NCBI GenBank assembly: GCA_011525875.1
Contig: WYBN01000012.1
Location: 434,001 to 498,000, forward strand
DNA length: 64,000 nt
Source: Melioribacteraceae bacterium
Lineage (GTDB): Bacteria > Bacteroidota > Ignavibacteria > Ignavibacteriales > Melioribacteraceae
Direction of reading: 5' to 3'
The notes beneath the pieces were generated by a model. The model made no database searches, was not told the origin of the DNA, and saw only the letters and a program-made list of their open reading frames with translations. A program made the position numbers and the translations under genes. This document shows, in pieces, positions 1 through 45,034 of this stretch (within the stretch, counting starts at the first letter, position 1; each line of letters begins with the position of its first letter).

Positions 1-1603
<1,603 letters not shown>

Positions 1604-1615
1604 TCAATTTTAAAA

Positions 1616-1909
1616 TTATTTTACAATACCGTAAATATCGCTTTCACGCATGATCAAATATTCTTCGCCGTCAACTGTTATTTCGGTTCCGCCATATTTA
1701 CCATAAAGAACCACATCACCAACTTTAACACCGGGTTGAATCGTTTTTCCGTCTTCAACCTTTCCTGGACCAACAGCAACTATAGTTCCCTCAATTGGTT
1801 TTTCTTTCGCTGTATCCGGTAAAATAATACCGCCTTTTGTTTTTTCTTCGGCTTCTTTTGGTTTTACAATAACTCTGTCAGCCAAAGGTTTAATTTTGAA
1901 ATCTGCCAT
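1616..1909 (-). CDS. groES: Co-chaperonin GroES (Hsp10)
   Basis: This 97-residue protein is the lid of the GroEL chamber. It begins [13 protein letters not shown] and has the mobile-loop region [11 protein letters not shown] and the late [11 protein letters not shown] strand, all typical of GroES at normal length. A longer in-frame start exists at 1945, but it would begin inside the CIRCE operator. The ATG at 1909 has AAGGAGG just upstream, so I chose it. It is the first gene of the groES-groEL operon and is expected to be repressed by HrcA and induced by heat. Confidence 0.97.
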
Positions 1910-1934
1910 AAATCCTCCTTTTAATTTAAATGAA

Positions 1935-1961
1935 ATAGCACTCATTATTAACGAGTGCTAA
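1935..1961 (-). promoter_or_regulatory. CIRCE operator (HrcA binding site)
   Basis: This is an inverted repeat of TAGCACTC and GAGTGCTA separated by exactly 9 bp. It matches the CIRCE consensus TTAGCACTC-N9-GAGTGCTAA at all but the outermost left base. It lies 26 bp upstream of the groES start and abuts the predicted -10 element, the usual position for HrcA repression of chaperonin operons. hrcA itself is not in this window. Confidence 0.96.
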
Positions 1962-23957: not shown

Positions 23958-25625
23958 TTAAAAATCCTTCTTAATTGCCTTCAAACCGGCAGAATAGAAA
24001 ACAGCAGTTACAGTAACTGAAAATAACACGAAATATGAATAGGCCGTATTAAGGTTTCGATGATCGTAATTACCATGTTTTAAGATTGATTCAAAATGCG
24101 CAAGCACTGGGTTAAATGTCATTATTATCATGAAAAGCATGTAAACGATGCACAGAAGAAATGTTATTGTTGCGCCTCGCGAAGAGGCTAAGCGTATAGC
24201 ATTTTTTTCTTTGTAATTTGAAAAGATAGAACCCATAGCGTAATTTAACGTAACAATAGCCGAAATACCGGGAATAAAAATGAGCATATTTTTTACGATA
24301 AGATGAGGTGCAAGTTTTATAAAAGAAAAATAAATTAAGGTTTCGCCGGAGATCACCATAGCTATGATAGAAAAAAATAGTTTTATATTGTAAATATAGC
24401 TTAAATCAATTGTACTGCTTCTTATCTTCCAAAAAGCTTTTCCTTCTAAGCTTATATATGGGAAGACAAATCTGAGTGATAATGTTGTAATGAGTAGTAA
24501 GTTGAATAACTGAAGAGCAAGATATATCATCGTTATCATATAAGGATCCGACAAATTGGAAATCGAGATACCTGAAGCACTTGAGACAAAAATCAGAAGA
24601 AGCAAGACAAATACGGACAGGTGTATTACCTGTGTTGAATCACGAACGAATAAGAGAAAATCTTTGACCATAATTGATAAATATTTGTGTTTGACTGTAT
24701 CAATCTTTTCTAATAAACTTCTTTTAAGTTTTGTCTTGGGCGAAACGAACGAGAAATTCATCAGCCAGGTTTTATAATACCACCTATGCCCGAGAAATAT
24801 AGTTAATCCAAATAACAAAGCAGCGGCTGAAAGCAAATAAACTGACCCGGCAGCAGCGTTGGTGTAATCTTCATTAACGATCCAGTAAAGAGAATCAGCG
24901 AACCATCTATTCGGCAGATATTTAAGCGCCGAAGGGATTAAATCGCTGAAATACTGATCCGTAAAAGGATAATATTCCATCACTTTTCTGACTAACAGCA
25001 CAGGTGAAGAGACTTTAAAGAAAAGAAAAAGGGAGAATAAATAAATAACACAAAGAAATATCAGCACCTTTCTTGCCCCGTATAAAGCCGAAAGCTTCAC
25101 AACAATTATCATAATTGAAACCCCGAGAGAAGAAGCGATGATAATGAAAGGAATCAAATACAAAAATATTATTAGAATAAAATCAGCAAACGAAAGGTTG
25201 AAATACACAGTATATCCTAAGAACAATGCGAATAAAATCATCATCAAAGTGGATGAACTATAAAATAGATTATCAAAATATTTGATGATAAATATTTTGA
25301 ACGGCTTAACAGGTTTTGTAAAAAGAAAAGAGACTTCTGCCGATTTATACAATGTAGACCATGAAACTATTATGTTTCCAACATTTATGGCGAGGAAGAA
25401 AATGAAAAAAATTATAGAAATAAATTCATGAAGAAGAAAATATCCGAGACGGGCTTTTTGAAGCACAAAATCAAGCACAGATAATGAAAAGAAAAAAGCT
25501 CCTGCTGCAAACCCGGCATAAACTAATGTGCCGGCAGAATTTTTCACTATCTCGCTTAATGTTATGTTAGTCGTCCTAAAATAGGCTGTGAGTTTATATT
25601 TAATTATTACTAAAATCTGGTTCAT
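23958..25625 (-). CDS. ABC-2 type exporter permease
   Basis: A very hydrophobic protein of about 555 residues with roughly twelve membrane segments, starting MNQILVIIKYKL. An ATG at 25673 would add 16 residues deep inside the ATPase gene, so I prefer the ATG at 25625; the overlap with the ATPase is then 26 bp. The pairing with an immediately upstream ATP-binding protein identifies it as the membrane half of an ABC-2 exporter. Substrate cannot be inferred. It lacks any periplasmic binding protein, which fits export. Confidence 0.82.
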   Translation of the reverse strand: MNQILVIIKYKLTAYFRTTNITLSEIVKNSAGTLVYAGFAAGAFFFSLSVLDFVLQKARLGYFLLHEFISIIFFIFFLAINVGNIIVSWSTLYKSAEVSFLFTKPVKPFKIFIIKYFDNLFYSSSTLMMILFALFLGYTVYFNLSFADFILIIFLYLIPFIIIASSLGVSIMIIVVKLSALYGARKVLIFLCVIYLFSLFLFFKVSSPVLLVRKVMEYYPFTDQYFSDLIPSALKYLPNRWFADSLYWIVNEDYTNAAAGSVYLLSAAALLFGLTIFLGHRWYYKTWLMNFSFVSPKTKLKRSLLEKIDTVKHKYLSIMVKDFLLFVRDSTQVIHLSVFVLLLLIFVSSASGISISNLSDPYMITMIYLALQLFNLLLITTLSLRFVFPYISLEGKAFWKIRSSTIDLSYIYNIKLFFSIIAMVISGETLIYFSFIKLAPHLIVKNMLIFIPGISAIVTLNYAMGSIFSNYKEKNAIRLASSRGATITFLLCIVYMLFMIIMTFNPVLAHFESILKHGNYDHRNLNTAYSYFVLFSVTVTAVFYSAGLKAIKKDF

Positions 25626-26343
25626 CTTCTGTAAGCTCAATAAATAATTCTTCCAGGTTGCGGTCTTTCTCATTTTTAAGTTTGAGTAATTCAGCTATGG
25701 AATCATCAAAGATCATTTTGCCTTTGTTGATAATACCGACCCTGCCGCATATTTCCTCGACGACGTGGAGACTGTGTGTAGACATAAAAATAGTTTTTCC
25801 GTTATCCGTATATTTTTTAAAAACGTTTTTGATTATATGCGCACTCTGCGGGTCAAGCCCGATCATCGGTTCATCAACAAGTATTAAGTCAGGTTCATGA
25901 AGAAAAGCTGAAGCGATCACAATTCTTTGCTTCATACCCTGGGAATAATCTTCTGTGTTTTTGTTTATCCAGCTTCCGATTTTTAGCTGATCTATGACAT
26001 TATCGATACGTTCCTTTAAGGTGTTTTTTTCAATACCATAGAGAGAGCCGGAAAAAAAAAGGAATTCCTTTCCTGTCAAACGATCGTAGATAAATGGCTG
26101 ATCTGGAATGTATCCGATAATACTTTTCGCTTCTATAGTTTCTGCTGCAAGATCAAATCCATTAATATCAATCTTGCCAGCAGATGGTTTTATCAGTCCA
26201 GTTATCATTTTTATTGTCGTTGTTTTGCCTGCTCCGTTTGGACCGAGAAAACCGAATAACTCGCCCTTATTCAATTCAAGCGATATGTTATCAACGGCTG
26301 TGAAATTCCCGAATCTTTTTGTTAATGAATTCAATTTGAGCAT
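25600..26343 (-). CDS. ABC transporter ATP-binding protein
   Basis: A 247-residue ABC ATPase with Walker A GPNGAGKTT, the signature YSQGMKQR, Walker B LILVDEP and the H-loop STHSLH. The IGYIPDQPFIYDRLT Q-loop region is typical of the drug/Na+/ABC-2 exporter ATPases (CcmA-like COG1131). It is coupled by overlap to the downstream membrane protein and sits 22 bp after the triple-AAA gene, all on the minus strand. Confidence 0.94.
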   Translation of the reverse strand: MLKLNSLTKRFGNFTAVDNISLELNKGELFGFLGPNGAGKTTTIKMITGLIKPSAGKIDINGFDLAAETIEAKSIIGYIPDQPFIYDRLTGKEFLFFSGSLYGIEKNTLKERIDNVIDQLKIGSWINKNTEDYSQGMKQRIVIASAFLHEPDLILVDEPMIGLDPQSAHIIKNVFKKYTDNGKTIFMSTHSLHVVEEICGRVGIINKGKMIFDDSIAELLKLKNEKDRNLEELFIELTEDEPDFSNN

Positions 26344-26365: not shown

Positions 26366-29300
26366 TTAAAAATCTTCCAATTTTATTTTTGCTACATCTT
26401 CATATATAATAGTCATAAGGTCTTCATCATTATAATCATATAATGTAGTAATTCTTTCTTCTTGGTAGCTGATTGCTTTATAGAGAATATTTTTTGCCGT
26501 ACGGGCATTACCAAAATTTTTATCTCTCTTTGTATAAAGTGTGTCGAATACTTCAAGAAAAAGCTGAAGCGCTCCCTCATCCAATTTATACCCGCTCTGA
26601 TCGGCAATATTAACAGCTATTTCAAGGAGCTGTCTTGACTCGTAATCTTCAAAATGGAAGAAATTTGTGAATCTTGAAGATAGCCCGGGATTTGATTCAA
26701 GAAAGTTTTTCATCTCGTCAGTATAACCGGCAGCAATAACAATAAACTGTCCGCGGTAATCTTCCATTCTTTTAAGTAGAGTATCAATTGCCTCCTGTCC
26801 AAAGTCATTTTTACCTCTTGATAGAGTGTAAGCTTCGTCTATAAACAATGTGCCGCCCAATGAACGTTCGATAATTTTATCGGTCTTTATTGCCGTCTGC
26901 CCCTGATACCCTGCAACGAGAGAGGATCTATCAACTTCTACGAGATGTCCTTTTTCGATCAGCCCGAGTTCTTTATAGATGCGGCTCATTAATCTGGCGA
27001 CTGTTGTTTTTCCGGTGCCAGGATTGCCCACGAAGACTGAGTGAAGATTTTTTTCAATTACTTTCAAACCGCGGTCTTTGCGCATCTTAGCTACTTTTAA
27101 CCCGCTGATAAGTTTTTCTACATTCGACTTAACTGAATTCAAGCCTGTTAGAGTCTGCAATTCTTCCATCAATTTTTCAAGTTTTTGAGGATCGCCTTTA
27201 ACTTCGTAAGGCTTTTTAATTACCTTTTTACCGATTCCGTATTCAATATCTTCAAGAAGTATTTTCTTTGATTCTTCACCATCTCTTTCTTCTGCCGGAA
27301 GATCTGCCAAGCGAAGAAGTCTCTTCTGAATTGCTTTTTCAAATATGGATCTTACAATTCTTGCATTTCCAAAATTCTTATCCCGCGATCGATATATTTC
27401 GTTAAAATGCCTTAGTAATTCATTTTCTGCATCTTTATCAATCAATAGCTTTTGGCTGCTTAAGAGCCTTCTGCTTATTTCAATCAATTCCGAAGGGTTA
27501 TAGTCTTCGAACATGAAAGTTTTGGTAAATCGTGACTGCATGCCGGGATTACTTTCAATAAAATTTTTCATTTCTTCAGTATAACCTGCCGCAATAACTA
27601 TAAATTTACCGCGCTCATCTTCCATAAGTTTCAAAAGAGTATCAATAGCTTCTTTACCAAAATCGTTCGGGTTGTCTTTAACAGTAAGAGTATAAGCTTC
27701 ATCAATAAATAATGTGCCGCCCATTGCCTGAGCAATTAAAGATTTTGTCTTTTCTGCAGTACCTCCCACATGGCTTGCAACTAAAGCCTGCCGGTCGGCT
27801 TCCACAACATGTCCTTTAGGAAGTATGCTTAGAGCGGAGTATATTCTCGCCAAAATACGTGCTGCCGTTGTTTTGCCTGTTCCTGGATTGCCAAGAAATA
27901 AAACATGGGATGAAAATTTTTCCTTAACATCCTCACTTTGTTCAATAAAATAACGAACAAGCTTAACCAAATCTCTAATTTCATTTTTAACCGATTCTAG
28001 TCCAATAAGTTTATTCAAATCATTTAAAGACTCGTTCAAGGCTTCTTCATCAATAGGAAGAATGACTGACTTACCGCTTTCGGGTTTGATAACTTCTTCA
28101 ACATCAGATTCTATTATGGTTCGCATTGCGTCTTTTGTACGCTCTTCTTCCGGCATGCCAATTAATCTTTTACTGAGAGCGAGTTTAATCTTTTCAAATA
28201 ACTGACGGGATAACCTTCCGTTTCCAAAGGTTTTATCACGTTTTCTATACATTCGTATTAATTCTTTCTTCAGTAAACCTTTTGCTCCATCGTTTATTAC
28301 GTAATCGCTTTTATTGAGCAGGGAAGTGAAGATTTCAATTAATTCGTCTGGAGTATAATCTTCAAAGATAAATGTATGATTAAACCGTGATTTCATTCCC
28401 GGGTTTGAAGTTAAGAACGTTTCCATTTCTTCAGGATAGCCTGCCGCAATTACAACAAATTTACCTTTTCTATCCTCCATACGTTTTAATAAAATATCAA
28501 TTGCTTCCTGTCCGAAATCTTGACCGCCTCCTTTTGATTTTACAAGGGTATAAGCTTCATCAATGAACAAAACGCCGCCCATAGCATCCTCAATAATCTT
28601 GTCGGTTTTCTGAGCAGTTTCACCGATATATTGTCCGACTAGAGCTGCCCGGTCAACTTCTACAACATGCCCCTTGGGAATAATGCCCATCGATTTAAAA
28701 ATCTCGCCAAGCAATCTTGCAATTGTAGTTTTGCCTGTGCCTGGATTGCCAACAAAAACAGCATTAATCTGAAGACCGTCTTCAGATTTCAACCCTAAGT
28801 TTTCTCTTTCTTTTTGAAATTTTAAGTAATCAACAAAATCACGAATTGACTTTTTGATAGAGCCAAGTCCTATAAATGTATCCAGCTCAGCAATCAGCTC
28901 CTCAATGGGCCGAGCCGGAGTAATTGTTTCGTCTTTGTCAGTTAATGCTTCGTCTGATTGCAGTATTTCCTGCTCAATTTTTTCGTCGAACTTTTCTTCT
29001 TGTTTTGGAAGCGGTTCGGTCAAAACAGGAATTTCATTATTGTCAACAAAGAACCACTTCTCGCATACTTTAAACTTTTCTATATAAATTTCAATCTTAC
29101 ATTGCCCTAATGACCATCGATGATCTTCTTCGGCGCCGCATTGTTGTGTAAAAATAACCGAGTCCCAGTCCTTGTTTACCTTCAAGACAAAATCATTTTT
29201 ATATACTTGAAAATCATTTAAATACCAGACTGCCTGGCAGTCGAAGGTTTTATTGTGTACTCTAAAATTTGGATTGCTGAAAATAATTTCAGCACAAATT

Positions 29301-30316
29301 TCATTTGTTTTCTTAATATCAAATTGTTCGAGGAAAATTTTTTCATTGCTTTTATGAAAATCTGCAAGATCATAAAGCTTAGCGGAAAATACTTCCACGT
29401 TATCATTCGGGAAATAAGAGGCGGAATACTTCTTTTTCTTTGGAACATCGTTTTCATCATGCAGAGTTTTTCTAACCACATTTTCTTGAGTAAATCTTAA
29501 TATGGGTTTGGGTATGTCTGGTTTTGGCTTTTCTTCATCTCTTGCATTTTCCTCTTTTGTCATCTTTTCCAGAGCAGAATAAATCTGATCGAATCTTTTA
29601 TTCTTCTTGAACATCCCTTTAAGAGTTTCAGCTTTAGCAAACGCAGGTTTAAACTGGTGGGTATGAAGCATTGCTTCAAGTTCGATTAGATGAGCTTCTT
29701 CGTGAAAAGCCTCTAATGACTGGCTTGCCAAGACAATTTTGGATACGAAAAGTGAAAACCACGATTCTTTCTCGCGTAAGGATTTATTTGCCATATCCAA
29801 TAATTCAGTTACTTCAGTTTTACTTAAATTTTTTTTCTTCTTTTCAACTTCCTCTGCTTTGTCATAAACTTTAGAAATAAAATCCGATTCTTGATTATTA
29901 TTCATTAGCATGCAAAGTTTGACTGATAGTTTTGCTTCTTTAAACCTGCCTAATCCGGCAAGGGAACGTGCTTTGTTCAAATAAGCCAAGCCAAGCAATC
30001 CTTTCTGTTCCTCAATAGTTCTATCTAAGTCAGTAATCGCTCCCTCCAAAATCCCGAGCCGCATCAAAATATATCCTCTGCCCAGATGCGATCTTATGGT
30101 GTTACCATGAAGTTCAACAGCTAAGTTAGCAAATTCCATTGCTTTGGAAGGCTGTCCGTTTTCGAGCAATGCCCAAGCATAATAAATTACCGCTTCGCTG
30201 TTATTAGGCCGTTCTGTAATCAACTGTTTGGAGGTTTTAAGAGCAAGCCGGTACCTTCCGTTCATTAAGTGGTCAAAGGTTTCCGACTGAAGTTTGTTTA
30301 GTTCTATCTCGTTCAA
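26366..30316 (-). CDS. TPR protein with three tandem CbbX/SpoVK-type AAA+ ATPase domains
   Basis: A 1316-residue cytosolic protein. Residues 1-270 form TPR-like helices (AVIYYAWALLENGQPSKAMEFA). Residues about 330-450 form a beta-rich segment of unknown class (HRWSLGQCKIEIYIEKFKV). Three AAA+ modules of about 285 residues follow, with Walker A GNPGTGKTT near residues 522, 808 and 1096. Each has its own LFIDEAYTL Walker B glutamate and a sensor-like AGY segment, so all three look catalytically competent. The modules belong to the CbbX/SpoVK/EccA branch, which remodels Rubisco or assists type VII secretion, but neither system is seen here. Substrate unknown. Confidence 0.9.
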   Translation of the reverse strand: MNEIELNKLQSETFDHLMNGRYRLALKTSKQLITERPNNSEAVIYYAWALLENGQPSKAMEFANLAVELHGNTIRSHLGRGYILMRLGILEGAITDLDRTIEEQKGLLGLAYLNKARSLAGLGRFKEAKLSVKLCMLMNNNQESDFISKVYDKAEEVEKKKKNLSKTEVTELLDMANKSLREKESWFSLFVSKIVLASQSLEAFHEEAHLIELEAMLHTHQFKPAFAKAETLKGMFKKNKRFDQIYSALEKMTKEENARDEEKPKPDIPKPILRFTQENVVRKTLHDENDVPKKKKYSASYFPNDNVEVFSAKLYDLADFHKSNEKIFLEQFDIKKTNEICAEIIFSNPNFRVHNKTFDCQAVWYLNDFQVYKNDFVLKVNKDWDSVIFTQQCGAEEDHRWSLGQCKIEIYIEKFKVCEKWFFVDNNEIPVLTEPLPKQEEKFDEKIEQEILQSDEALTDKDETITPARPIEELIAELDTFIGLGSIKKSIRDFVDYLKFQKERENLGLKSEDGLQINAVFVGNPGTGKTTIARLLGEIFKSMGIIPKGHVVEVDRAALVGQYIGETAQKTDKIIEDAMGGVLFIDEAYTLVKSKGGGQDFGQEAIDILLKRMEDRKGKFVVIAAGYPEEMETFLTSNPGMKSRFNHTFIFEDYTPDELIEIFTSLLNKSDYVINDGAKGLLKKELIRMYRKRDKTFGNGRLSRQLFEKIKLALSKRLIGMPEEERTKDAMRTIIESDVEEVIKPESGKSVILPIDEEALNESLNDLNKLIGLESVKNEIRDLVKLVRYFIEQSEDVKEKFSSHVLFLGNPGTGKTTAARILARIYSALSILPKGHVVEADRQALVASHVGGTAEKTKSLIAQAMGGTLFIDEAYTLTVKDNPNDFGKEAIDTLLKLMEDERGKFIVIAAGYTEEMKNFIESNPGMQSRFTKTFMFEDYNPSELIEISRRLLSSQKLLIDKDAENELLRHFNEIYRSRDKNFGNARIVRSIFEKAIQKRLLRLADLPAEERDGEESKKILLEDIEYGIGKKVIKKPYEVKGDPQKLEKLMEELQTLTGLNSVKSNVEKLISGLKVAKMRKDRGLKVIEKNLHSVFVGNPGTGKTTVARLMSRIYKELGLIEKGHLVEVDRSSLVAGYQGQTAIKTDKIIERSLGGTLFIDEAYTLSRGKNDFGQEAIDTLLKRMEDYRGQFIVIAAGYTDEMKNFLESNPGLSSRFTNFFHFEDYESRQLLEIAVNIADQSGYKLDEGALQLFLEVFDTLYTKRDKNFGNARTAKNILYKAISYQEERITTLYDYNDEDLMTIIYEDVAKIKLEDF

Positions 30317-30461
30317 TTAATAGCCGGCAATGTGGTTAATTTGTTTCGTTTAATTATCCTAAATATAATAATTATGTATTTATTATATACCTGATTAATA
30401 ATATTTTTCTTATAACAAAATATTGGCTTATGCGTCTAAAATTCTAAAATCCGAGGTTGAT

Positions 30462-31112
30462 ATGAGAGTAAAGTTACTAATTTTAATTTTAACGGCATCA
30501 TTTTTTACAATTTCCTGCAGTTCATGGGGTGGAATACGTGGCAGCGGTGAAATATTTGAAGAAAAACGTAACATTGATGAATACAGTCAGATCGAAATAT
30601 CTGGCGCATTTGCGGTAAAAGTTTTTGTAGGCGAAGAAGCTGCGCTGCAGATTTCAGGCGATAAAAATCTTCTTCAATATGTGGTCACTCAAGTTAAAGG
30701 CGATAGATTAATTATCTCCACAAAGAGAAATATTAATCCTAAAAACGAATTGAGAATAATTACATCTACCCAGAATCTTGAGGCGCTATTCCTAAGCGGC
30801 GCAAATAAAGTAAAAGTGGAAGGAATAGACGCAGAAAAATTTATTGCTGAGATAAGCGGAGCCTGCAATGTCGAGCTTGATGGAATTGTAGAGCAGCTCA
30901 AGATCAATCTTTCAGGTGCTTCAAAAATTAATTCTGAAGACTTGATCGCTGAAGACGTGAAAATTGACTGCAGTGGTGCATCGAATGCACTGATACATGC
31001 ATCTAATACATTACTTGCTAATGTATCGGGAGTAGGAAAGATCGATTTCAAAGGCGACCCGCAAAAAGTAAAATCGAGCGTATCCGGAATTGGTAGTATT
31101 AACAGAAAATAA
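30462..31112 (+). CDS. Head-GIN domain lipoprotein (DUF2807)
   Basis: A 216-residue envelope protein. Residues 1-18 are a lipoprotein signal with cysteine C19 in TISCSS. The rest is a right-handed beta-repeat with recurring GA/GS turns (LSGANKVKVEG, ISGACNVELDG, LSGASKIN, CSGASNALI), characteristic of the head-GIN/DUF2807 family common in Bacteroidota. Function is unknown; these proteins are suspected adhesins or surface scaffolds. The ATG at 30462 has GAGG 5 bp upstream; an upstream start at 30423 would put the signal peptide inside the protein. It is divergent from the triple-AAA gene. Confidence 0.88.
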   Translation: MRVKLLILILTASFFTISCSSWGGIRGSGEIFEEKRNIDEYSQIEISGAFAVKVFVGEEAALQISGDKNLLQYVVTQVKGDRLIISTKRNINPKNELRIITSTQNLEALFLSGANKVKVEGIDAEKFIAEISGACNVELDGIVEQLKINLSGASKINSEDLIAEDVKIDCSGASNALIHASNTLLANVSGVGKIDFKGDPQKVKSSVSGIGSINRK

Positions 31113-32917: not shown

Positions 32918-33409
32918 ATGATTACAAATATCTATTCTAACTACTCAAAAAACGACAGAAGCAGTTTAATTCCGATATTACAGGACATACAAGAAGAAAT
33001 TGGTTATCTGCCAGAATCAGAACTGAAGAGAGCAGCAGAATTTATCGGCATTCCTCTTAGTACAGTTTATGGAGTAGCAACTTTTTATAATCAATTCCGC
33101 CTTACTCCGCTTGGAAAGAATATAATAAGAGTCTGCCGCGGGACAGCATGTCATGTAAAAAATTCAGCAAATATTTTACAGGCTCTTGAAACAGAACTGC
33201 GTATTAAAGCCGGCGAGACAACGAGAGATAAATTATTTACTCTTGAAACTGTAGCATGTATTGGCGCATGCAGCATTGCACCAGTAATAAGCGTAAATGA
33301 TGAATACTTTGGCAGACTGAATGTAAAAGATATTCCCAAAATTATTACTAAATATACAAGAGAATCCAAACTCAAAAAATCTGCAGAAACAACTATGGCG
33401 GGTCAATAA
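32918..33409 (+). CDS. hydC: [FeFe]-hydrogenase HydC subunit, module 1 (NuoE-like)
   Basis: A 163-residue thioredoxin-like [2Fe-2S] protein. The four ligands C73, C78, C114 and C118 are present in the C-x4-C...C-x3-C pattern (CRGTAC and CIGAC), and an N-terminal helical bundle (DIQEEIGYLPESEL) is typical of NuoE. In trimeric hydrogenases it relays electrons between NAD(H) on HydB and the rest of the complex. It is the first gene of the unit; the hydB1 ATG shares a base with its stop codon. Confidence 0.93.
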   Translation: MITNIYSNYSKNDRSSLIPILQDIQEEIGYLPESELKRAAEFIGIPLSTVYGVATFYNQFRLTPLGKNIIRVCRGTACHVKNSANILQALETELRIKAGETTRDKLFTLETVACIGACSIAPVISVNDEYFGRLNVKDIPKIITKYTRESKLKKSAETTMAGQ

Positions 33410-35385
33410 TGAATAGTTTTTTGGAAATAAAATTTAAAGATGGGTTTCATACACCTGAAAATCCTAAGCCGGAATTTATTGCTCACTGCACTAATCCTTC
33501 ACTGAATCCCGCTCAGGAAAATGAGATAAAGGATTTTATCTCTGAGTTGTTGTATGAAAAGCATAATGTACCTCTAATATTTGTCGGTATGGATACTAGT
33601 GGTCTGGCTTCCGGAGCCGGAAAGGTAAAAGAATCGATTGATACTGAATTGATAAAATTAAAAATAAATGCGAAAGTGATTCCCATAGGCGGTTTGGGCT
33701 GCGGAGCGATTGAACCAGTTGTTGAAATAAAGCATCCGGACGGTGATAGAATAATTTACAGTGAAATTAGTTTTAAAGATGTTCCGGAACTGCTAACTAC
33801 TACGTTGATAAACAAAGAGATTTATAAGAAAAAGATTTTTGCGAAACACGGTAAAACTGAAAAGGAGATCCCAAGTATCTCAGAAACTCTTTTCTTTAAG
33901 AAACAACTTAGAATAGTGTTGAACAACTGCGGAATAATCTGCCCCGATTCAATTGATGAATACATTGCTTCAGGCGGTTTCAAAAGTCTGGATAAAGCTT
34001 TGAGATTGATGAATCCTACGGAAGTACTGCAAGATGTGTTAGATAGCGGCTTAAGGGGTCGTGGCGGCGGCGGCTTCCCAACAGGGTTAAAATGGCAAAT
34101 GGCTCATAGAAATTCTTCAGATCAAAAATATATTATCTGCAATGCGGACGAAGGCGACCCGGGTGCTTTTATGGACAGATCCATTCTTGAGGGGGATCCC
34201 TTTAAACTGGTGGAAGGAATGATAATCGGCGGTTATGCAATAGGCGCAACAATTGGATATGTATATTGCAGAGCAGAATATCCACTTGCTATTCAGAAAC
34301 TTGAAAATGCTATAAAAGAATGTAAGCGATATGGTCTGCTCGGAAATAATATTTTGGGCAGCGGCTTTTCCTTCCAATTAAAAATTAAGAAAGGCGCTGG
34401 CGCATTTGTCTGCGGAGAAGAAACAGCTCTAATAGCGTCCATCGAAGGGAAAAGAGGTATGCCAAGACCAAGACCCCCTTATCCGACAGATTCAGGTCTT
34501 TGGGGAAAGCCGACTGTCATAAATAATGTTGAAACATTCGCAAACATCTCAAGCATAATTATTAATGGTTCAAAATGGTATTCTTCAATTGGAACTGAAT
34601 CGAGCAAGGGAACAAAAGTATTTGCATTGAGCGGTAAAATAAAAAACACGGGTCTCGTTGAAGTGCCGATGGGTATAACTCTTCGCGAAGTTGTTTTTGA
34701 TATCGGCGGAGGAATACCCTCGAATAAAAAGTTTAAAGCCCTCCAAATCGGTGGACCTTCGGGTGGATGTCTGCCTGAATCCGTTTTAGATACTCCGGTG
34801 GATTATGAATCTCTTAAACAAGTTGGGGCTATGATGGGCTCGGGCGGTTTCGTGGTTATGGATGAAGATACATGCATGGTTGATGTTGCAAAATTCTTTC
34901 TGACTTTCATACAAAATGAATCTTGCGGCAAATGCGTTCCATGCCGCGAAGGGACGAAAAGAATGCTGGAAATAATAGAAAGAATAACGAAAAATTATGA
35001 TAAGATGGGCGACCAAACAGAGGCTCTTCAAAGATTCAAAGGAATCATTTATTTAAATAGATTAGCCGAAGTCATCAAAGACACTTCTTTGTGCGGTTTA
35101 GGTCAAAGTGCTCCGAATCCTGTATTATCTGGTCTTCACTATTTTAGGGACGAATACGAAGCTCATATCTATGACAGAAAATGCAGTTCGCACGTGTGCA
35201 AGGAATTGTTGACTTTCAGTATCGATAATACATTATGCACAGGCTGCGGAGTATGCACTCGCAAATGTTCTGCGGAAGCTATTGTCGGAGATAAGAAACA
35301 CCCGCATTACATTATAGAAAGTAAGTGCATTAAATGTGGCATGTGCGTTGAATCTTGCCGTTTCGATGCAATATTAGTTAATTAA
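33409..35385 (+). CDS. hydB: [FeFe]-hydrogenase HydB subunit, module 1 (NuoF-like, with ferredoxin tail)
   Basis: A 658-residue NADH/FMN subunit. The core has FMN motif GRGGGGFPTG near 216-226, NADEGDPGAFMDRS and the [4Fe-4S] site ESCGKCVPCREG with a later Cys. The C-terminus adds C592/C597 and two ferredoxin clusters, C610-C613-C616-C620 and C640-C643-C646-C650, as in bifurcating HydB. The N-terminal domain (1-160) has the fold pattern of a 2Fe-2S thioredoxin domain but not its cysteines: the TCG position is TSG (S64), and the GCxGxC positions read G95 and G99. That cluster is probably absent. Confidence 0.93.
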   Translation: MNSFLEIKFKDGFHTPENPKPEFIAHCTNPSLNPAQENEIKDFISELLYEKHNVPLIFVGMDTSGLASGAGKVKESIDTELIKLKINAKVIPIGGLGCGAIEPVVEIKHPDGDRIIYSEISFKDVPELLTTTLINKEIYKKKIFAKHGKTEKEIPSISETLFFKKQLRIVLNNCGIICPDSIDEYIASGGFKSLDKALRLMNPTEVLQDVLDSGLRGRGGGGFPTGLKWQMAHRNSSDQKYIICNADEGDPGAFMDRSILEGDPFKLVEGMIIGGYAIGATIGYVYCRAEYPLAIQKLENAIKECKRYGLLGNNILGSGFSFQLKIKKGAGAFVCGEETALIASIEGKRGMPRPRPPYPTDSGLWGKPTVINNVETFANISSIIINGSKWYSSIGTESSKGTKVFALSGKIKNTGLVEVPMGITLREVVFDIGGGIPSNKKFKALQIGGPSGGCLPESVLDTPVDYESLKQVGAMMGSGGFVVMDEDTCMVDVAKFFLTFIQNESCGKCVPCREGTKRMLEIIERITKNYDKMGDQTEALQRFKGIIYLNRLAEVIKDTSLCGLGQSAPNPVLSGLHYFRDEYEAHIYDRKCSSHVCKELLTFSIDNTLCTGCGVCTRKCSAEAIVGDKKHPHYIIESKCIKCGMCVESCRFDAILVN

Positions 35386-35401
35386 ACAAAAAAGGTTTGT
35401 C

Positions 35402-37129
35402 ATGATTGAGCTAACAATAAATAATATCAAAGTCAAAGCCGAAAGCGGAATGACAATACTCGATGCTGCAAAATCAGTTGGAATTCATATTCCGACACTC
35501 TGCCATATGAAAGAATTATTTCCCACCGGCGCATGCAGAATCTGCGTTGTCGAAGTCGAGGGCATGAGAGGGTTAACCCCAAGTTGTGCTTACCCTGTCC
35601 AAGAAAATATGGTCGTTCAAACGAATTCATCCCGTGTGCGCAGAGCAAGGAAAACCATAGTTGAACTGCTTGTTGAGAATCATCCTCAGGATTGTTTGAT
35701 TTGCGTGCGGAATAAAAACTGCGAACTACAGGATTTGTCAGAAAAATATGCATTGCGAGAGCATAGATATGCAGGCGAAAAGAAAGATCATGCCATTGAC
35801 ATTTCAAGCGCATCTATGGAAAGAGATCCCGCTAAATGTATTCTCTGCGGACGCTGCGTGAGAGTTTGCAACGAAATCCAGAAGGTCGGTGCTATCGACT
35901 TTACTAACCGCGGATTCAAAAGTAATGTAACGACTCCTTTTAATAAAGGATTGAACATCAGCGACTGTATCCTTTGCGGGCAGTGTATTTTAGTTTGTCC
36001 GACTGCCGCCTTGAGAGAAAAAAGCCATTCGAAGGAGGTGGCTGATGCTTTAAACAACAAGAAAAAATATTGTATTGTTCAAATAGCCCCTGCGGTCAGA
36101 GCTTCGCTTGGCGAAGAATACAACCTCCCGATGGGCAGCAATGTAACCGGTCAAATAGTTACCGGATTGAGAAGATTAGGTTTCAAAAAAGTTTTCGATA
36201 CAAATTTTGCGGCAGACTTAACAATAATGGAAGAAGCAACTGAATTGATTCATCGAATAGAGGAGGGCGGCAAGCTCCCCATGTTCACGAGCTGCTGCCC
36301 GGGATGGGTAAAATACATAGAACAAAACAGACCTCATTTGCTCGATCATGTTTCTACATGCAAGTCACCTCACGAAATGGAGGGAGCGGTTCTTAAATCC
36401 TATTATGCGAAAAAGATGGGAATAAATCCAGAAGATATGTTTGTGGTTTCGGTGATGCCGTGCACCGTCAAAAAGTTTGAGTCGGAACGTCCGGAATTAT
36501 CATCCGAAAAATTACCTGATGTTGATGCCGTTTTAACCGTACGCGAACTTGTGCGCATGTTTAAAATGGCAGGTATTGATTTTGACGATTTGCCGGAAGA
36601 CAATTTTGATAATCCGCTTGGCGAATCCACCGGAGCGGCTGTAATTTTTGGAAGCAGCGGCGGGGTAATGGAAGCTGCTCTCAGAACTGCTTACTTCAAA
36701 ATAACAGGTGATAACCTCGAGAATCTTGAATTAAACGATCTGCGAGGCATGGGTGGAATAAAAGAAGCTTCTATTAAGATTAGCGATAAAGATGTAAAGG
36801 TAGCTGTAGTTAACGGAATAGGTAATGTTGGCAAAGTATTGGATAAAATTGAAGAGGGAAGCTGCGACTATACATTCATTGAAGTAATGGCTTGCCCCGG
36901 CGGGTGTGTTAACGGCGGTGGTCAACCGATACATCAAAAACCAGAAAAAATTCGCAAACGGGTTCAATCATTATATGAGATAGACTCTAAATCAAGTTCA
37001 AGAATGTCGCACGAAAACGAATCCGTATTAAAAATATACGATGAATTATTAGGAGAACCTAACAGTCGAAAGGCACACGAAATTTTACATACGACTTATG
37101 TAGATAGAAAAATTCATTTTAGGAAATAA
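35402..37129 (+). CDS. hydA: [FeFe]-hydrogenase catalytic subunit HydA, module 1
   Basis: A 575-residue group A-type [FeFe]-hydrogenase making or consuming H2. In order: [2Fe-2S] (C34, C45, C48, C62), His-ligated [4Fe-4S] (H94, C98, C101, C107), two ferredoxin [4Fe-4S] clusters (146-156 and 189-199), then the H domain. The signature loops are canonical: TSCCPGW (C298/C299), MPCTVKKFE (C354), and EVMACPGGC with GGGQP (C498/C502). A small-subunit-like tail ends it. With hydC1 and hydB1 it forms the trimeric NAD(P)H-linked, possibly ferredoxin-bifurcating, enzyme. The HydEFG maturases are not in the window. Confidence 0.96.
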   Translation: MIELTINNIKVKAESGMTILDAAKSVGIHIPTLCHMKELFPTGACRICVVEVEGMRGLTPSCAYPVQENMVVQTNSSRVRRARKTIVELLVENHPQDCLICVRNKNCELQDLSEKYALREHRYAGEKKDHAIDISSASMERDPAKCILCGRCVRVCNEIQKVGAIDFTNRGFKSNVTTPFNKGLNISDCILCGQCILVCPTAALREKSHSKEVADALNNKKKYCIVQIAPAVRASLGEEYNLPMGSNVTGQIVTGLRRLGFKKVFDTNFAADLTIMEEATELIHRIEEGGKLPMFTSCCPGWVKYIEQNRPHLLDHVSTCKSPHEMEGAVLKSYYAKKMGINPEDMFVVSVMPCTVKKFESERPELSSEKLPDVDAVLTVRELVRMFKMAGIDFDDLPEDNFDNPLGESTGAAVIFGSSGGVMEAALRTAYFKITGDNLENLELNDLRGMGGIKEASIKISDKDVKVAVVNGIGNVGKVLDKIEEGSCDYTFIEVMACPGGCVNGGGQPIHQKPEKIRKRVQSLYEIDSKSSSRMSHENESVLKIYDELLGEPNSRKAHEILHTTYVDRKIHFRK

Positions 37130-37142
37130 CGTTTTATAAACC

Positions 37143-39134
37143 ATGGTCAATGAGATTGTAAGTACAATTGGACAGAAATGCAAAAGATGCTATTCATGTG
37201 TTCGTGAATGTCCAGCAATTGCAATCCGTGTGGAAAACGGTCAAGCTGTCGTAATTCAAGAAAGATGCATCAGCTGTGGTCACTGTGTTAAAGTATGTTC
37301 ACAAAATGCCAAGCAAATTTATTGTGATACAGAAAGGTTACTCAAAGAAATTATACCTAACTATGAAACATATGCCATTGTTGCGCCATCGTTTGCCGCT
37401 TCGTTTGGTGAATATTATAAAAAACTCCCAGCTGCGTTGCGCAGAATGGGATTTTCAAAAATTATAGAGACTGCTTTTGGAGCCGATTTGATAAGTTCGA
37501 GCTATGAAAAAATAATAGATCAAATTGATAAAGAAGTTATCATAAGCTCACCCTGCCCTGCAATCTATAATTATATAGAAAAATATTTTACCGAATTAGT
37601 TCCTAACCTCGCAAAAGTTGTTTCTCCGATGATAGCATTAGGTAAATACCTAAAGGATAATTACGGCAATAATATTAAAATTGTTTTCATTGGACCGTGC
37701 GTCGCAAAAAAAAGTGAATATACGGATAATGACGTAGCTGGGAATGTTGATGCGGTTTTGACCTTTACAGAATTGAAAGATGTTTTTGAATCATTAAACA
37801 TTTGTCTTGCAGAATTAGAAAATTCAACATTTGATCCGCCATATTCTTTTATGGGCAAATCCTACCCGCTGCCGGGCGGCTTGCTTAAAACCGCCCAAAT
37901 ATCAAGCGACGTACTCGATAAAAAAATTATTGTTGTAGAAGGTAAAGATAAAGTTCAGGAGATAATAGAAGACATATCTTCTGGAAAAATTAAATCGAAA
38001 TTTATTGATATCCTTTTTTGTGAAGGATGCATCAGCGGTCCGGCTATAGACACTGGTTTAAACTACTATTCGAGAAGGGAAAAAATCATAAACTATATAG
38101 ATGAGAGCATTCATCAATGCGATAAAAATGTGTGGAAGAGCGAACTATTTAACAGCCGTGGGATGAATTTCAGCAGACAATTTACCGCTAAATCGCAAAG
38201 ACGACCGATGCCTACAGACGAAAAAATAAAAGAAATTTTAGCACGAACAAAAAAGTATGATGTATCCGATGAACTAAACTGCGGCGCTTGCGGTTACAAA
38301 ACTTGCAGAGAATACGCTGTTGCAATAGGGAAAGGTTTAGCAGAAGAAGAAATGTGCCTGCCCTTCCTTATTGAAGAACTGGAAGATGCTTATAGAGAAC
38401 TGAAGCTAACACAGGAACAGTTACACAGCGCAGAGAAACTTGCTTCGATAGGGCAGCTTGCCGCTGGCATCGCTCATGAAATAAACAATCCTCTCGGAAC
38501 CATACTGCTTTACAGTTCGATGCTGAAAAAGGGAATTGAAAAATGCAAAAGCGCTAAATCTATTTCCGATGACCTTTCTCTTATTATCTCCGAAACTAAT
38601 AGATGCCGTGATATTGTTTCAAACCTTCTTAACTTTGCAAGGCAGGGCAAACTAAAAATAACGCTTTTCCAATTACAGAATATCATAAATGAAATATTGA
38701 GACCGATAAAACATAATCCAAATAATAAAATTTTAGTAAATACTATTGATGAAATAAATGGATTGATGATTGAAGGGGATGCCGATCAATTGAAGCAAGT
38801 ATTGATAAACATCATTTCAAACTCTTGCGAAGCGATGGAAGAAACAAACAAAAAATATTTAACGATCAAAACTGTAAAAAACGGGAACAATGTAGTTATT
38901 GAAATATCCGATACCGGCTGCGGCATACCGGCTGAAAATATTTCAAAATTGTTTACTCCTTTTTTTACTACAAAAAAAATCGGGAAGGGAACGGGACTCG
39001 GTCTTGCAATTTCATATGGCATTATTAAAATGCACAGGGGTGATATCAGAATAGAAAGCCAAAAGGAAGAAGGTTCAAAAGTAATTATCACAATTCCCGT
39101 GAAGAATAAATCGATGCAGGCTATAATGAATTAA
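37143..39134 (+). CDS. Histidine kinase with [FeFe]-hydrogenase-like sensory domain
   Basis: A 663-residue soluble protein. Two ferredoxin clusters (C13-C23, C42-C52) lead a hydrogenase-like H domain at about 75-310, a four-cysteine Fe-S motif (C380, C383, C388, C405), then HisKA with H445 in AHEINNP and an HATPase with DTGCGIP and GTGLGL. The H-cluster ligands are kept (C138, C186, C293, C296), but the proton-relay cysteine is proline (SSPCPA) and loop 3 is CEGC in place of CPGGC. This is the pattern of sensory [FeFe] hydrogenases linked to kinases (group C type). I infer an H2 or redox sensor. It sits between the two HydABC modules. Confidence 0.92.
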   Translation: MVNEIVSTIGQKCKRCYSCVRECPAIAIRVENGQAVVIQERCISCGHCVKVCSQNAKQIYCDTERLLKEIIPNYETYAIVAPSFAASFGEYYKKLPAALRRMGFSKIIETAFGADLISSSYEKIIDQIDKEVIISSPCPAIYNYIEKYFTELVPNLAKVVSPMIALGKYLKDNYGNNIKIVFIGPCVAKKSEYTDNDVAGNVDAVLTFTELKDVFESLNICLAELENSTFDPPYSFMGKSYPLPGGLLKTAQISSDVLDKKIIVVEGKDKVQEIIEDISSGKIKSKFIDILFCEGCISGPAIDTGLNYYSRREKIINYIDESIHQCDKNVWKSELFNSRGMNFSRQFTAKSQRRPMPTDEKIKEILARTKKYDVSDELNCGACGYKTCREYAVAIGKGLAEEEMCLPFLIEELEDAYRELKLTQEQLHSAEKLASIGQLAAGIAHEINNPLGTILLYSSMLKKGIEKCKSAKSISDDLSLIISETNRCRDIVSNLLNFARQGKLKITLFQLQNIINEILRPIKHNPNNKILVNTIDEINGLMIEGDADQLKQVLINIISNSCEAMEETNKKYLTIKTVKNGNNVVIEISDTGCGIPAENISKLFTPFFTTKKIGKGTGLGLAISYGIIKMHRGDIRIESQKEEGSKVIITIPVKNKSMQAIMN

Positions 39135-41438: not shown

Positions 41439-41912
41439 ATGCTTGTTGTCGAGAAAAATTCACTTACTGATGAGATAGAAGTTCTTGTTGAAAAATATGG
41501 CAAGGAAAGATCTTCATTACTCCCGATTCTACAAGAGATTCAGAGAAATCACAAGTACATTTCGGACTTCGCACAACAGGAAATTGCCCGTTTACTTGAT
41601 ATTCATCCTGTTGAGGTTTACTCGGTAATTACGTTCTATTCATTTCTGAATGCTAAACCTAAGGGAAGGAACATTGTGCGATTATGCCGAACAATTACAT
41701 GCGATCTTTTGGGAAAAGAAAATGTAGTGGCTGCAATTGAGAGGGAATTGGGTATTAAATTCGGGGAAACTACAAAGGATAACCGCATCACGTTAGAATA
41801 TGCGAACTGTCTTGGTATGTGCGATCAAGGTCCGGCTCTGCTGGTCAATGATAAGGTATATACTGAGTTAACACCTGAAAAAGCTGTTCAAATCTTAAAC
41901 AGTGTGAGGTAG
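41439..41912 (+). CDS. hydC: [FeFe]-hydrogenase HydC subunit, module 2 (NuoE-like)
   Basis: A 157-residue NuoE-like [2Fe-2S] protein with all four ligands (C83, C88, C124, C128; CRTITC and CLGMC). It differs clearly from the first copy (for example CDLLGKEN in place of CHVKNSAN), so it is not a recent duplication. A strong GAGGAG ribosome site precedes its ATG, one base after the receiver gene. It is followed one base later by hydB2. Confidence 0.93.
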   Translation: MLVVEKNSLTDEIEVLVEKYGKERSSLLPILQEIQRNHKYISDFAQQEIARLLDIHPVEVYSVITFYSFLNAKPKGRNIVRLCRTITCDLLGKENVVAAIERELGIKFGETTKDNRITLEYANCLGMCDQGPALLVNDKVYTELTPEKAVQILNSVR

Positions 41913-41913
41913 C

Positions 41914-43125
41914 ATGACTATGAAAAATAAAACTAATCAAAGCAACGGTAAAGTGCTCTTCTCTCAATATAATAGAGGGGATGCGATTAAAAAATTGAGC
42001 GGTCTTTCAAGAGAAGATGTCTTATATGAGCTAAAGGTCTCTAAATTAAAAGGAAGAGGTGGTGCAGGATTTCCGACTTCGACAAAATGGATGCTGACAG
42101 CTGCGGCAGTCAGCCAAGAAAAATATCTAATTTGCAACGCAGATGAAGGCGAACCTGGAACATTTAAAGACCGCGTTTTACTCCTAGAACACTCAGAACT
42201 TGTATTTGACGGAATGGTCGTGGGAGCTTATACTATTGGGGCAAAAAAAGGCTTTGTCTATCTGCGAGGCGAATATGAATATATGCTCTCTTCACTTGAA
42301 GATTTTCTTGAGACAATGCGTAATGATAATCTCCTTGGTGAATCAATATGCGGAATTAAAGGATTTGACTTCGATATCGAAATTAGACTTGGTTCGGGAG
42401 CTTATGTTTGCGGCGAAGAAACTGCTTTGATCGAATCACTCGAGGGACACAGAGGCGAAGCGCGTAATCGACCGCCATTTCCCGTTAGTAAAGGTTATAA
42501 AGGAAAACCGACGACAGTTAATAACGTTGAAACATTTGCCTCGGTTGTTCATATTGTTATGAAAGGAGGAGAATGGTTTCAAAAACATGGTACCGATAAG
42601 TCTACTGGCTCAAAATTGTTTTCAGTTTCAGGCGACTGCGAACGGCCTGGAGTTTATGAACTGCCTTGGGGAACAAAAATTTCTGAATTGCTTGAGATTA
42701 TAGGAGCCAAAAACACGAAAGCCGTTCAGGTAGGTGGAGCTTCGGGAATATGCGTTAACAAATCACAGTTCGAACGAACTTTGGCATATGAAGACTGCTC
42801 TACAGGAGGTTCAATCATGGTATTCAACGAAACGAGAAATATGCTTCATGTGTTGAAAAACTTTATGGAATTTTTTGTGGAAGAAAGCTGCGGTCAATGT
42901 ACACCGTGCCGGATTGGAAATACAAAACTTCTTGAGGGAGTTGAAATGCTTGAAAGCGATGAATACACATTTGCTTACATCAATAAATTAAAAGAACTTG
43001 GCAAGACAATGCAGATTGCATCAAAATGCGGACTGGGTCAATCCAGTCCTAACTCGTTTTTGTCAATATTAGAAAATTTCAAAGATGAAATATTTAATGG
43101 GCGCGGAGGTAAATATGGAAAATAA
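41914..43125 (+). CDS. hydB: [FeFe]-hydrogenase HydB subunit, module 2 (NuoF-like, minimal)
   Basis: A 403-residue NuoF-type NADH/FMN subunit. It has GRGGAGFPTSTKW near 48-60, NADEGEPGTFKDR, GEETALIESLEG and the [4Fe-4S] site ESCGQCTPC with a later KCGLGQ. It lacks the N-terminal thioredoxin domain and the C-terminal pair of ferredoxin clusters seen in HydB1. It is therefore closer to plain NuoF in layout, which raises the question of whether this module can bifurcate. The end overlaps the hydA2 start by 11 bp. Confidence 0.93.
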   Translation: MTMKNKTNQSNGKVLFSQYNRGDAIKKLSGLSREDVLYELKVSKLKGRGGAGFPTSTKWMLTAAAVSQEKYLICNADEGEPGTFKDRVLLLEHSELVFDGMVVGAYTIGAKKGFVYLRGEYEYMLSSLEDFLETMRNDNLLGESICGIKGFDFDIEIRLGSGAYVCGEETALIESLEGHRGEARNRPPFPVSKGYKGKPTTVNNVETFASVVHIVMKGGEWFQKHGTDKSTGSKLFSVSGDCERPGVYELPWGTKISELLEIIGAKNTKAVQVGGASGICVNKSQFERTLAYEDCSTGGSIMVFNETRNMLHVLKNFMEFFVEESCGQCTPCRIGNTKLLEGVEMLESDEYTFAYINKLKELGKTMQIASKCGLGQSSPNSFLSILENFKDEIFNGRGGKYGK

Positions 43126-45034
43126 GAATGGATTAAGAGCACCGGTAAGTCAAAAACCACATGTTGTTCCAAAACCGGAAGATACTTCAACAATCGGTGG
43201 AACAGTTTCGATAGAAATTAATGATGTAAAATACTCTGTGCCTCTTGGTACGACCATACTTGAAGCATGCAGAGAAAATCATATTCACATACCAACATTA
43301 TGTCATCACGACGACCTTTGCATTGCCGGGGTCTGCCGACTATGTGTTGTGGAAGTGACGGGTATGAGAACACTCCAGGCTTCATGCGCTTACCCCATAA
43401 CCGCACCAATAAAAATTAAAACTTCAACTCCTATGGTTCGTAAAGCCCGCAGACACATTATTGATTTGATGTTAAGCGAACATCATGGAGAATGTTATTC
43501 GTGTGTAAGAAATAATAATTGCGAGCTTCAGGCGCTCGCTAAAGAATATGGCGTTGATTGTTATAATTTTGGGCATGTGAAAGAATCCCAGTATGAGATT
43601 GACGATTCTTCTTACTCTGTAGTAAGGGATATGGATAAGTGCGTATTATGCAAAAGATGTGTAAGAACTTGTATTGATCTTCAGGAAGTAGGCGTTCTGG
43701 AAGCGATTAACCGAGGCGGTGAAACAATGATCAGTACATTTATGGATAAACAGCTGGCAGATGTAATATGCATTAATTGCGGGCAGTGTATAAACAGATG
43801 CCCTACCGGTGCGCTTCATGAAAAGGACACTTCGGACGATATCTGGAAAGCAATTGATGACCATGCAAAACATGTCGTCATACAGACCGCTCCTTCTCCG
43901 CGTGCAGCGATTGGCGAAGAGTTCGGGTTGGGCGCGGGACACTCAATGACCTATGAGCTGAATACTGCTTTAAAGCGTATAGGTTTTGATGCTGTATTCG
44001 ATACAAACTTTACTGCTGATTTGACAATAATTGAAGAAGGTACTGAATTAATAATCCGTTTATATAAAGCGCTGATAGAGAAAGATAAAGAGGTTGCACT
44101 CCCACAATTCACTTCATGTTCGCCGGGTTGGGTTAAATATTTAGAACATTTCTACCCAGAATATATACCTAATCTCAGCTCGGCAAAATCGCCTCAGCAG
44201 ATGTTCGGTGCTTTAATAAAAACTTTTTACGCTGATAAGGTTGGCGTTGATGCCAAAGATATAGTCAGTGTTGCAGTCATGCCCTGTTCAGCAAAAAAAT
44301 TTGAATGTAACCGTCCAGAGATGGAAGATTCAGGTTTTAAGGATGTTGATTATGGATTGACCACCCGCGAGATGGCAAAGATGATTAAAGAAGCCGGAAT
44401 CCATCTGCCGGAAATGCCTAAAACACATTTCGATAGTCCATTTGGAGATGCTTCAGGCGCTGGTTTAATATTTGGCGCCACTGGCGGCGTAATGGAAGCT
44501 GCCATTCGAACTGTTGTAGAGTTCGTAACCGGCAATAAAACTGAAGACATATTCGAGAAGGCAAATATTCTTCCGCTTAGAGGATTTGAAGGTATAAAGT
44601 ACATGGAAATACCCATTGGTAATAATGTCGGGCCTGTTCCTGATCTTATCAAGCATCTTGTTCCCGACTGGAATTGGCTGAAGGGAGCTGTACTAAAGGT
44701 TGCAGTTGCGCACGGCACAGCTAACGCTAAGAAAATCATGGAGGATATTAAGCGAGGTGGGAAATTCAGCGAATGTCATTTCATAGAATTTATGGCTTGT
44801 CCTGGCGGATGTATTGGCGGCGGAGGACAGCCTATACCTACCACTCCAGAAATTAGAAAGAAACGTGCCGAAGCAATTTACGCTGAAGATGAATCTCTCG
44901 AAATAAGAAAATCGCATGATAATCCATCCATCAAGAAAATTTATCAGGAATTTTTGAATGAAGGTCCATGCAGCCATCTTTCTCACAAATTGCTCCACAC
45001 TCACTACAAGAAGAGAGGAAGATATATAGCTTAA
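43115..45034 (+). CDS. hydA: [FeFe]-hydrogenase catalytic subunit HydA, module 2 (TSCSP variant)
   Basis: A 639-residue HydA. The ATG at 43115 has a GGAGG site; an ATG at 43085 lies well inside hydB2 and is less likely. Clusters: [2Fe-2S] C63, C74, C77, C91; His-ligated H123, C127, C130, C136; two ferredoxin sets at 176-186 and 219-229. H domain loops: TSCSPGW (C335, S336), MPCSAKKFE (C391) and MACPGGC (C562/C566) with GGGGQP. The S336 replaces the second cysteine of the usual TSCCP. An extra 30-residue N-terminus precedes the [2Fe-2S] domain. It is the last gene of the unit, before a hairpin. Confidence 0.95.
   Translation: MENKNGLRAPVSQKPHVVPKPEDTSTIGGTVSIEINDVKYSVPLGTTILEACRENHIHIPTLCHHDDLCIAGVCRLCVVEVTGMRTLQASCAYPITAPIKIKTSTPMVRKARRHIIDLMLSEHHGECYSCVRNNNCELQALAKEYGVDCYNFGHVKESQYEIDDSSYSVVRDMDKCVLCKRCVRTCIDLQEVGVLEAINRGGETMISTFMDKQLADVICINCGQCINRCPTGALHEKDTSDDIWKAIDDHAKHVVIQTAPSPRAAIGEEFGLGAGHSMTYELNTALKRIGFDAVFDTNFTADLTIIEEGTELIIRLYKALIEKDKEVALPQFTSCSPGWVKYLEHFYPEYIPNLSSAKSPQQMFGALIKTFYADKVGVDAKDIVSVAVMPCSAKKFECNRPEMEDSGFKDVDYGLTTREMAKMIKEAGIHLPEMPKTHFDSPFGDASGAGLIFGATGGVMEAAIRTVVEFVTGNKTEDIFEKANILPLRGFEGIKYMEIPIGNNVGPVPDLIKHLVPDWNWLKGAVLKVAVAHGTANAKKIMEDIKRGGKFSECHFIEFMACPGGCIGGGGQPIPTTPEIRKKRAEAIYAEDESLEIRKSHDNPSIKKIYQEFLNEGPCSHLSHKLLHTHYKKRGRYIA

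Follow-up and report, generated by a model that had tools for sequence, protein, structure and literature searches.

A three-motor CbbX-type AAA+ protein with tetratricopeptide repeats and a beta-sandwich domain, found across the Ignavibacteriales

The 64,000-nucleotide stretch analysed here (the window; contig WYBN01000012.1 of a Melioribacteraceae bacterium, positions 434,001 to 498,000) harbors on its minus strand a gene for a protein that carries three AAA+ motor modules in series behind a tetratricopeptide repeat (TPR) region and a beta-sandwich domain. The gene occupies 26366-30316(-) as one uninterrupted frame of 1316 amino acids with a TTG start, which is plausible because the first alternative ATG, at residue 18, already lies past near-invariant residues. 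A Pfam scan of the protein returns AAA (PF00004) and AAA_lid_6 (PF17866), three stretches each, and TPR_19 on residues 17-70. An earlier note on this DNA had described a single polypeptide with a TPR region and three CbbX-type AAA+ motors, and both its coordinates and its description are borne out by the reading frame and the Pfam matches. The layout is as follows (relatives counted among 64 triple homologues):

26366-30316, minus strand: whole gene, 1316 amino acids (TPR, beta sandwich, linker, three CbbX-type AAA+ modules)
29567-30289, minus strand: TPR or helical-repeat region, residues ~10-250, clearest repeats 14-160 (Pfam and PDB profiles)
29027-29428, minus strand: beta-sandwich domain, residues ~297-430, not in Pfam (AlphaFold, Foldseek)
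28904-29026, minus strand: acidic, poorly conserved linker, residues ~431-471 (pairwise identity)
28091-28903, minus strand: AAA+ module 1 (residues 472-742) with pore loop YIGET; 63 of 64 relatives keep the whole catalytic set
27236-28039, minus strand: AAA+ module 2 (residues 760-1027) with pore loop HVGGT; 61 of 64 relatives keep the whole catalytic set
26384-27178, minus strand: AAA+ module 3 (residues 1047-1311) with pore loop YQGQT; catalytic set complete in this protein, module inactivated in 23 of 64 relatives

All three modules contain GNPGTGKTT, LFIDEA, AAGY, the NPGxxSR arginine finger and the sensor 2 motif FGN(A/G)R, so the remark in the earlier note that none of them looks dead is true of this protein, if not of module 3 in the family at large. 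The pore loop of module 2 starts with a histidine here and with tyrosine or phenylalanine in most relatives. Each module aligns end to end with CbbX (PDB 3zuh/3syk, E 1e-50 to 3e-54) and also with the AAA domain of EccA1; with these alignments and motifs the CbbX-type assignment stands. The comparison with the TPRs of EccA stands as well, since Pfam TPR families match the N-terminal region in 30 of 30 family members, and profiles of solved TPR proteins match it with E values down to 1.5e-10. The linker that precedes the motors has a mean pairwise identity of 13%, compared with 37-63% in the flanking domains.

The higher-order clade that contains SpoVK, CbbX and EccA is marked by a GY in sensor 1, an Asn before the arginine finger and a sensor-2 Arg, and its members are described as dedicated chaperones that have no linked peptidase and recruit through variable N-terminal domains (Delerue et al. 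2023, PMC10659427). These signatures are present in the window protein: AAGY occurs in all three modules and is retained by nearly all live relatives, the Asn lies four residues before the first arginine finger (N638, N923 and N1209; found in 62, 62 and 51 of 64 relatives), and the second arginine, that of sensor 2, is R701, R986 and R1272. The first-finger position itself is K, Q or S in the window modules, the SR arginine being retained as R644, R929 and R1215; the Walker B glutamates are E587, E873 and E1161. Above the NCBIfam cut-offs for SpoVK, EccA and CbbX, the whole protein might be read as a true CbbX, a Rubisco activase, or as a true EccA of a type VII system. However, it passes these cut-offs because three module scores are summed; single modules reach 204-278 bits against cut-offs of 423-467 and fall below every one of them (SpoVK, TIGR02881, the best-scoring single-module family, 249-278 against 422.95; EccA 226-240 against an equivalog cut-off of 466.65; CbbX 204-226 against an equivalog cut-off of 459.25). 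Moreover, neither RuBisCO_large (PF00016) nor WXG100 (PF06013) is matched anywhere in the 81%-complete genome, with control genomes positive in the same search, and WXG100 is also absent from the neighborhoods; the statement that no Rubisco or type VII genes are visible extends, as regards RuBisCO_large and WXG100 proteins, from the window to the genome. Orthology to CbbX or EccA is therefore very improbable. Judged by sequence, the protein belongs to the SpoVK/CbbX/EccA higher-order clade and to none of its three named families, because it has the clade signatures, single modules under the cut-offs and neither partner family in the genome.

The closest known systems differ in architecture and setting. 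CbbX shares GNPGTGKTT, the pore loop (QYIG.T), SNPG..SR and the lid domain, but it has one module where the window protein has three together with TPR and beta domains; it is the activase of red-type Rubisco, whereas the genome studied here has no Rubisco match, and the window modules each score half the CbbX equivalog cut-off. EccA1/EccA (PDB 9lur) likewise places a TPR region before a CbbX-type module, but a single one, and lacks the beta sandwich; its N-terminal Pfam model, EccA1_N, matches 1 of 30 members of the present family, weakly, and the genome has no WXG100 match. SpoVK, the MurG chaperone of sporulation, has the clade signatures in common with the window modules, which nevertheless score under its cut-off; it has a short N-terminal domain and is reported only from sporulating Firmicutes (PMC10659427), while the present host belongs to the Ignavibacteria. 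Tandem CbbX-type modules already exist elsewhere: EccA-like, beta-helix AAA+ proteins of Streptomyces plasmids place them behind a beta-rich domain, although with two modules, a beta-helix annotation and eccCa as neighbor. One such protein lies on a Streptomyces scopuliridis plasmid (WP_326813255.1, L147 1812-5156; annotated beta-helix, two CbbX-type AAA+ modules beside eccCa).

Relatives were searched for in the phylum of the window and in a plasmid collection. The source genome is 2.28 Mb and 81% complete, and relatives found with the N-terminal half as query belong to Melioribacteraceae, Ignavibacteriaceae and other Ignavibacteria. Among 58 genomes from its family and order, counting the source genome itself, 44 have a full triple (a count taken from the match table, in which one of the 44, G026, is a partial match); full triples measure 1271-1371 amino acids and are 37-63% identical to the window protein, and a few further genomes hold two-module versions or fragments at contig ends. 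The family is order-wide in the Ignavibacteriales and without a name in the libraries searched. The earlier note would have counted itself refuted if the architecture proved common and assigned: common it is, assigned it is not, as single modules score under the named-family cut-offs. No earlier description of the architecture was found in the open-access literature, most subscription papers lying outside this coverage.

The modules have a long separate history. A maximum-likelihood phylogeny of 89 modules, rooted arbitrarily (midpoint on a long branch), does not cluster the modules of one triple together; they form three anciently separated lineages, which places the duplications far back and shows that each position has stayed distinct. 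The first module of the triple is joined by its counterpart in proteins with two beta domains and two AAA+ modules (99/92), the third by the second module of proteins built as TPR, beta domain and two AAA+ modules (100/94). The branches of CbbX and EccA are long in this tree, and module 2 of the two-module relative L141 and the first module of the zinc-ribbon cousins are placed unsurely. The question raised earlier, whether the modules arose by internal duplication, is thereby answered: they did, anciently, with fixed positions. Cousins and relatives with 1, 2, 4, 5 or 6 modules exist. The distant zinc-ribbon lineage has four to six CbbX-type modules per chain, of which the first is degenerate, dead at Walker B but with the arginine finger retained, and the remaining three, four or five are live (L132 156-5189(+), L133 5110-8454(-), L134 6075-10253(+), L135 4811-8968(+), L136 6061-10236(-), L140 4794-8135(-)). 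A further protein of 874 amino acids (L139 4397-7021) has a different, undescribed N-terminal region before two CbbX-type modules.

How such modules are arranged can be approached through their natural decay in the 64 non-redundant triple homologues. Walker B is lost once in module 1, three times in module 2 and in 23 sequences in module 3, the last representing four changes on the tree, and at least one live module persists in every protein. A dead module 3 is still full length and its Walker A lysine is kept in 87% of cases; no position out of 100 conserved ones is more eroded than its arginine finger, which ties for the lowest retention (9%, with a mean of 66% elsewhere). Overall, 25 of 27 Walker-B-dead modules have lost their own finger, against 0 of 165 live ones. 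The cis and trans residues of one module thus decay together (Fisher p 2e-29, not to be read literally because the sequences are related and represent about seven separate events), while the pairing of Walker B with the finger of another module gives no association (p 0.54 in both directions).

Given their homology to FtsH and p97, the modules are taken to follow the general rule of AAA+ rings, in which an arginine finger reaches the ATP bound by the neighbor. If the three modules formed a half-ring (m1-m2-m3), a live neighbor would still depend on the finger of a dead module, which should be kept; if each module forms a ring with its own copies, Walker B and finger should decay together. Because the finger is lost with Walker B in the same module, stacked homotypic rings are favored over the covalently linked half-hexamer proposed in the earlier note, in which two chains would close as m1-m2-m3-m1'-m2'-m3' and each finger would serve a different module. 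That arrangement has some appeal: three divides six, the modules keep their own lineage and place, and dead module 3 is retained and not deleted, as if needed for ring closure. Yet 23 live ATP sites would then adjoin a fingerless neighbor in either ring direction, and in two homologues (L121 and L145) module 1 alone is alive, with both possible finger donors dead. The two-module relatives and the cousins with four, five or six modules also fit stacking better, since stacked modules need no divisor of six. A half-hexamer is consequently unlikely. Serial AAA+ modules, some of them inactive, are known from p97 and ClpB, type II tandem AAA+ proteins, and from dynein, in which all motors form the ring of one chain with six modules; these are general comparisons of architecture. 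The window protein differs in its three CbbX-type modules and unrelated N-terminal domains.

The beta-rich region that the earlier note could not recognise, at about residues 330-450, proves to be a domain of nine strands at ~297-430, modelled by AlphaFold from the family alignment with a mean local confidence (pLDDT) of 94.2 and a predicted TM score (pTM) of 0.86. It has no Pfam match, either as a single sequence or as a 79-member family, and a PDB profile search recovered no solved structure. DUF3859 was tried as its identity, with nothing convincing. Foldseek searches with the model return UNC119, PDE6D or RhoGDI, which are lipid-binding Ig-like sandwiches, in all of the first fifty matches (top match E 1.7e-5, TM score 0.48; the fifty at ~1e-5 to 1e-4, TM score ~0.5, 9-15% identity). 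We take this resemblance of the predicted model as similarity of fold, not homology, and a lipid pocket in the domain is a guess. In a phylum-wide draw the domain occurs in 43 of 395 genomes, nearly all within the order. Seven genomes outside the order have it in tandem pairs: six place the pairs before one or two AAA+ modules, and the seventh (L122) has a pair in a protein without AAA+ modules. Proteins of 278 amino acids (L129 4475-5311, L130 5026-5862, L131 37-873) consist of two copies of the sandwich with a signal-peptide-like N-terminus, and L122 contains a relative of 661 amino acids. Such two-domain proteins are probably secreted.

The genes adjoining the AAA+ gene are:

25600-26343, minus strand: ATP-binding cassette (ABC) ATPase of ABC-2 type, separated from the AAA+ gene by 22 bp, probable operon partner (Pfam ABC_tran)
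23958-25673, minus strand: ABC-2 type permease (PF16949, Pfam 8.5e-49), its frame overlapping that of the ATPase
30423-31112, plus strand: divergent DUF2807 (head-GIN) gene, conserved neighbor, upstream in 29 of 55 full-length loci

The ATPase and then the permease lie directly downstream in 23 of the 51 full-length loci with room for them (median gap 26 bp, mostly 3-46 bp). Upstream, DUF2807 is typical of Melioribacteraceae-type loci and probably reflects synteny only, and in 11 of 55 loci groES-groEL lies directly upstream on the same strand. Since the AAA+/ABC block is found in both upstream contexts and in L141, it is rated above synteny by descent. On the model of EccA in type VII secretion, the protein might then be a remodeller devoted to the ABC-2 exporter, which would prepare, deliver or assemble the exporter or its substrate. 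However, the permease is present in 25 of 58 relatives and the AAA+ gene in most, so that in many genomes the AAA+ gene is not accompanied by the permease; the reverse is true of two, and co-occurrence is barely above independence. Presence and absence across the 58 genomes weaken an obligatory ABC partnership, and exclusive devotion to the exporter is possible but rather unlikely.

The groEL context raises the possibility of a general stress chaperone acting with GroEL. Perfect CIRCE elements precede groES in most groEL-neighbor loci, and adjacency and CIRCE together suggest heat-shock co-transcription with groESL, which is weakened by a hairpin resembling an intrinsic terminator 3' of groEL in every groEL-AAA gap examined, so co-transcription is not implied. 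The neighbor in Melioribacteraceae is DUF2807, and in the window groESL lies 24 kb from the AAA+ gene. A partnership with GroEL is distinctly unlikely. The window copy of groEL-groES, at 2-1945(-), has a near-perfect CIRCE element at 1935. An anti-phage ATPase of the IetA type is scarcely credible: PADLOC IetA models match in three stretches at 7e-26, but this is generic AAA+ similarity, the subtilisin-like protease IetS is not among the conserved neighbors, and across the order the gene adjoins housekeeping genes, not mobile islands. Elsewhere in the window (37143-39134), a hydrogenase-like iron-sulphur protein fused to a histidine kinase, which looks like a sensory hydrogenase, sits between two HymAB-type hydrogenase clusters (32918-37129 and 41439-45034).

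Our preferred, if tentative, explanation (probability about 0.45) is that the protein is a soluble, cytosolic member of the SpoVK/CbbX/EccA clade that works as a dedicated AAA+ remodeller or chaperone. When chains oligomerise, each module would meet its own counterpart in adjacent chains, which would yield homotypic rings stacked as in p97 or ClpB, in this case as three tiers. Module 1 would be the constant, near-indispensable motor and module 3 the first to turn structural. The TPR and beta domains may select a specific client protein; the pore loops (Y, H and Y here) would pull on an exposed segment of it using ATP, presumably by threading, and the client would be released remodelled and not degraded. 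More speculatively, the client may belong to, or go to, the ABC-2 exporter encoded next door, which is the best lead. A fuller version combines six chains, three stacked and separately evolving CbbX-type rings with 18 motors, a sandwich of UNC119/RhoGDI type with a lipid pocket that reads clients together with the TPRs, service to an Ignavibacteria ABC-2 exporter, and one to six tiers depending on the lineage; as a whole it is a doubtful proposition. Several points weigh against the preferred explanation, besides the uneven occurrence of the permease. The AlphaFold model of the three modules leaves their arrangement unfixed (pTM 0.39), with the individual domains good. That the SR arginine acts in trans is presumed from homology, and the coupling of Walker B and finger loss comes from only about seven independent decay events. 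Finally, heterotypic contacts may occur in the zinc-ribbon cousins, given that their Walker-B-dead first module retains its arginine.

Characterised members of the SpoVK/CbbX/EccA clade have one motor, and the order-wide family described here has three; summed multi-module scores would mislabel it as SpoVK, CbbX or EccA. A beta-sandwich domain absent from Pfam occurs both in AAA+ proteins and in two-domain, probably secreted proteins. The pattern of natural inactivation yields a testable statement, that the modules form stacked homotypic rings and not a shared ring, and names a near-indispensable module. The number of modules, one to six among cousins, offers a way to study how AAA+ rings are constructed.

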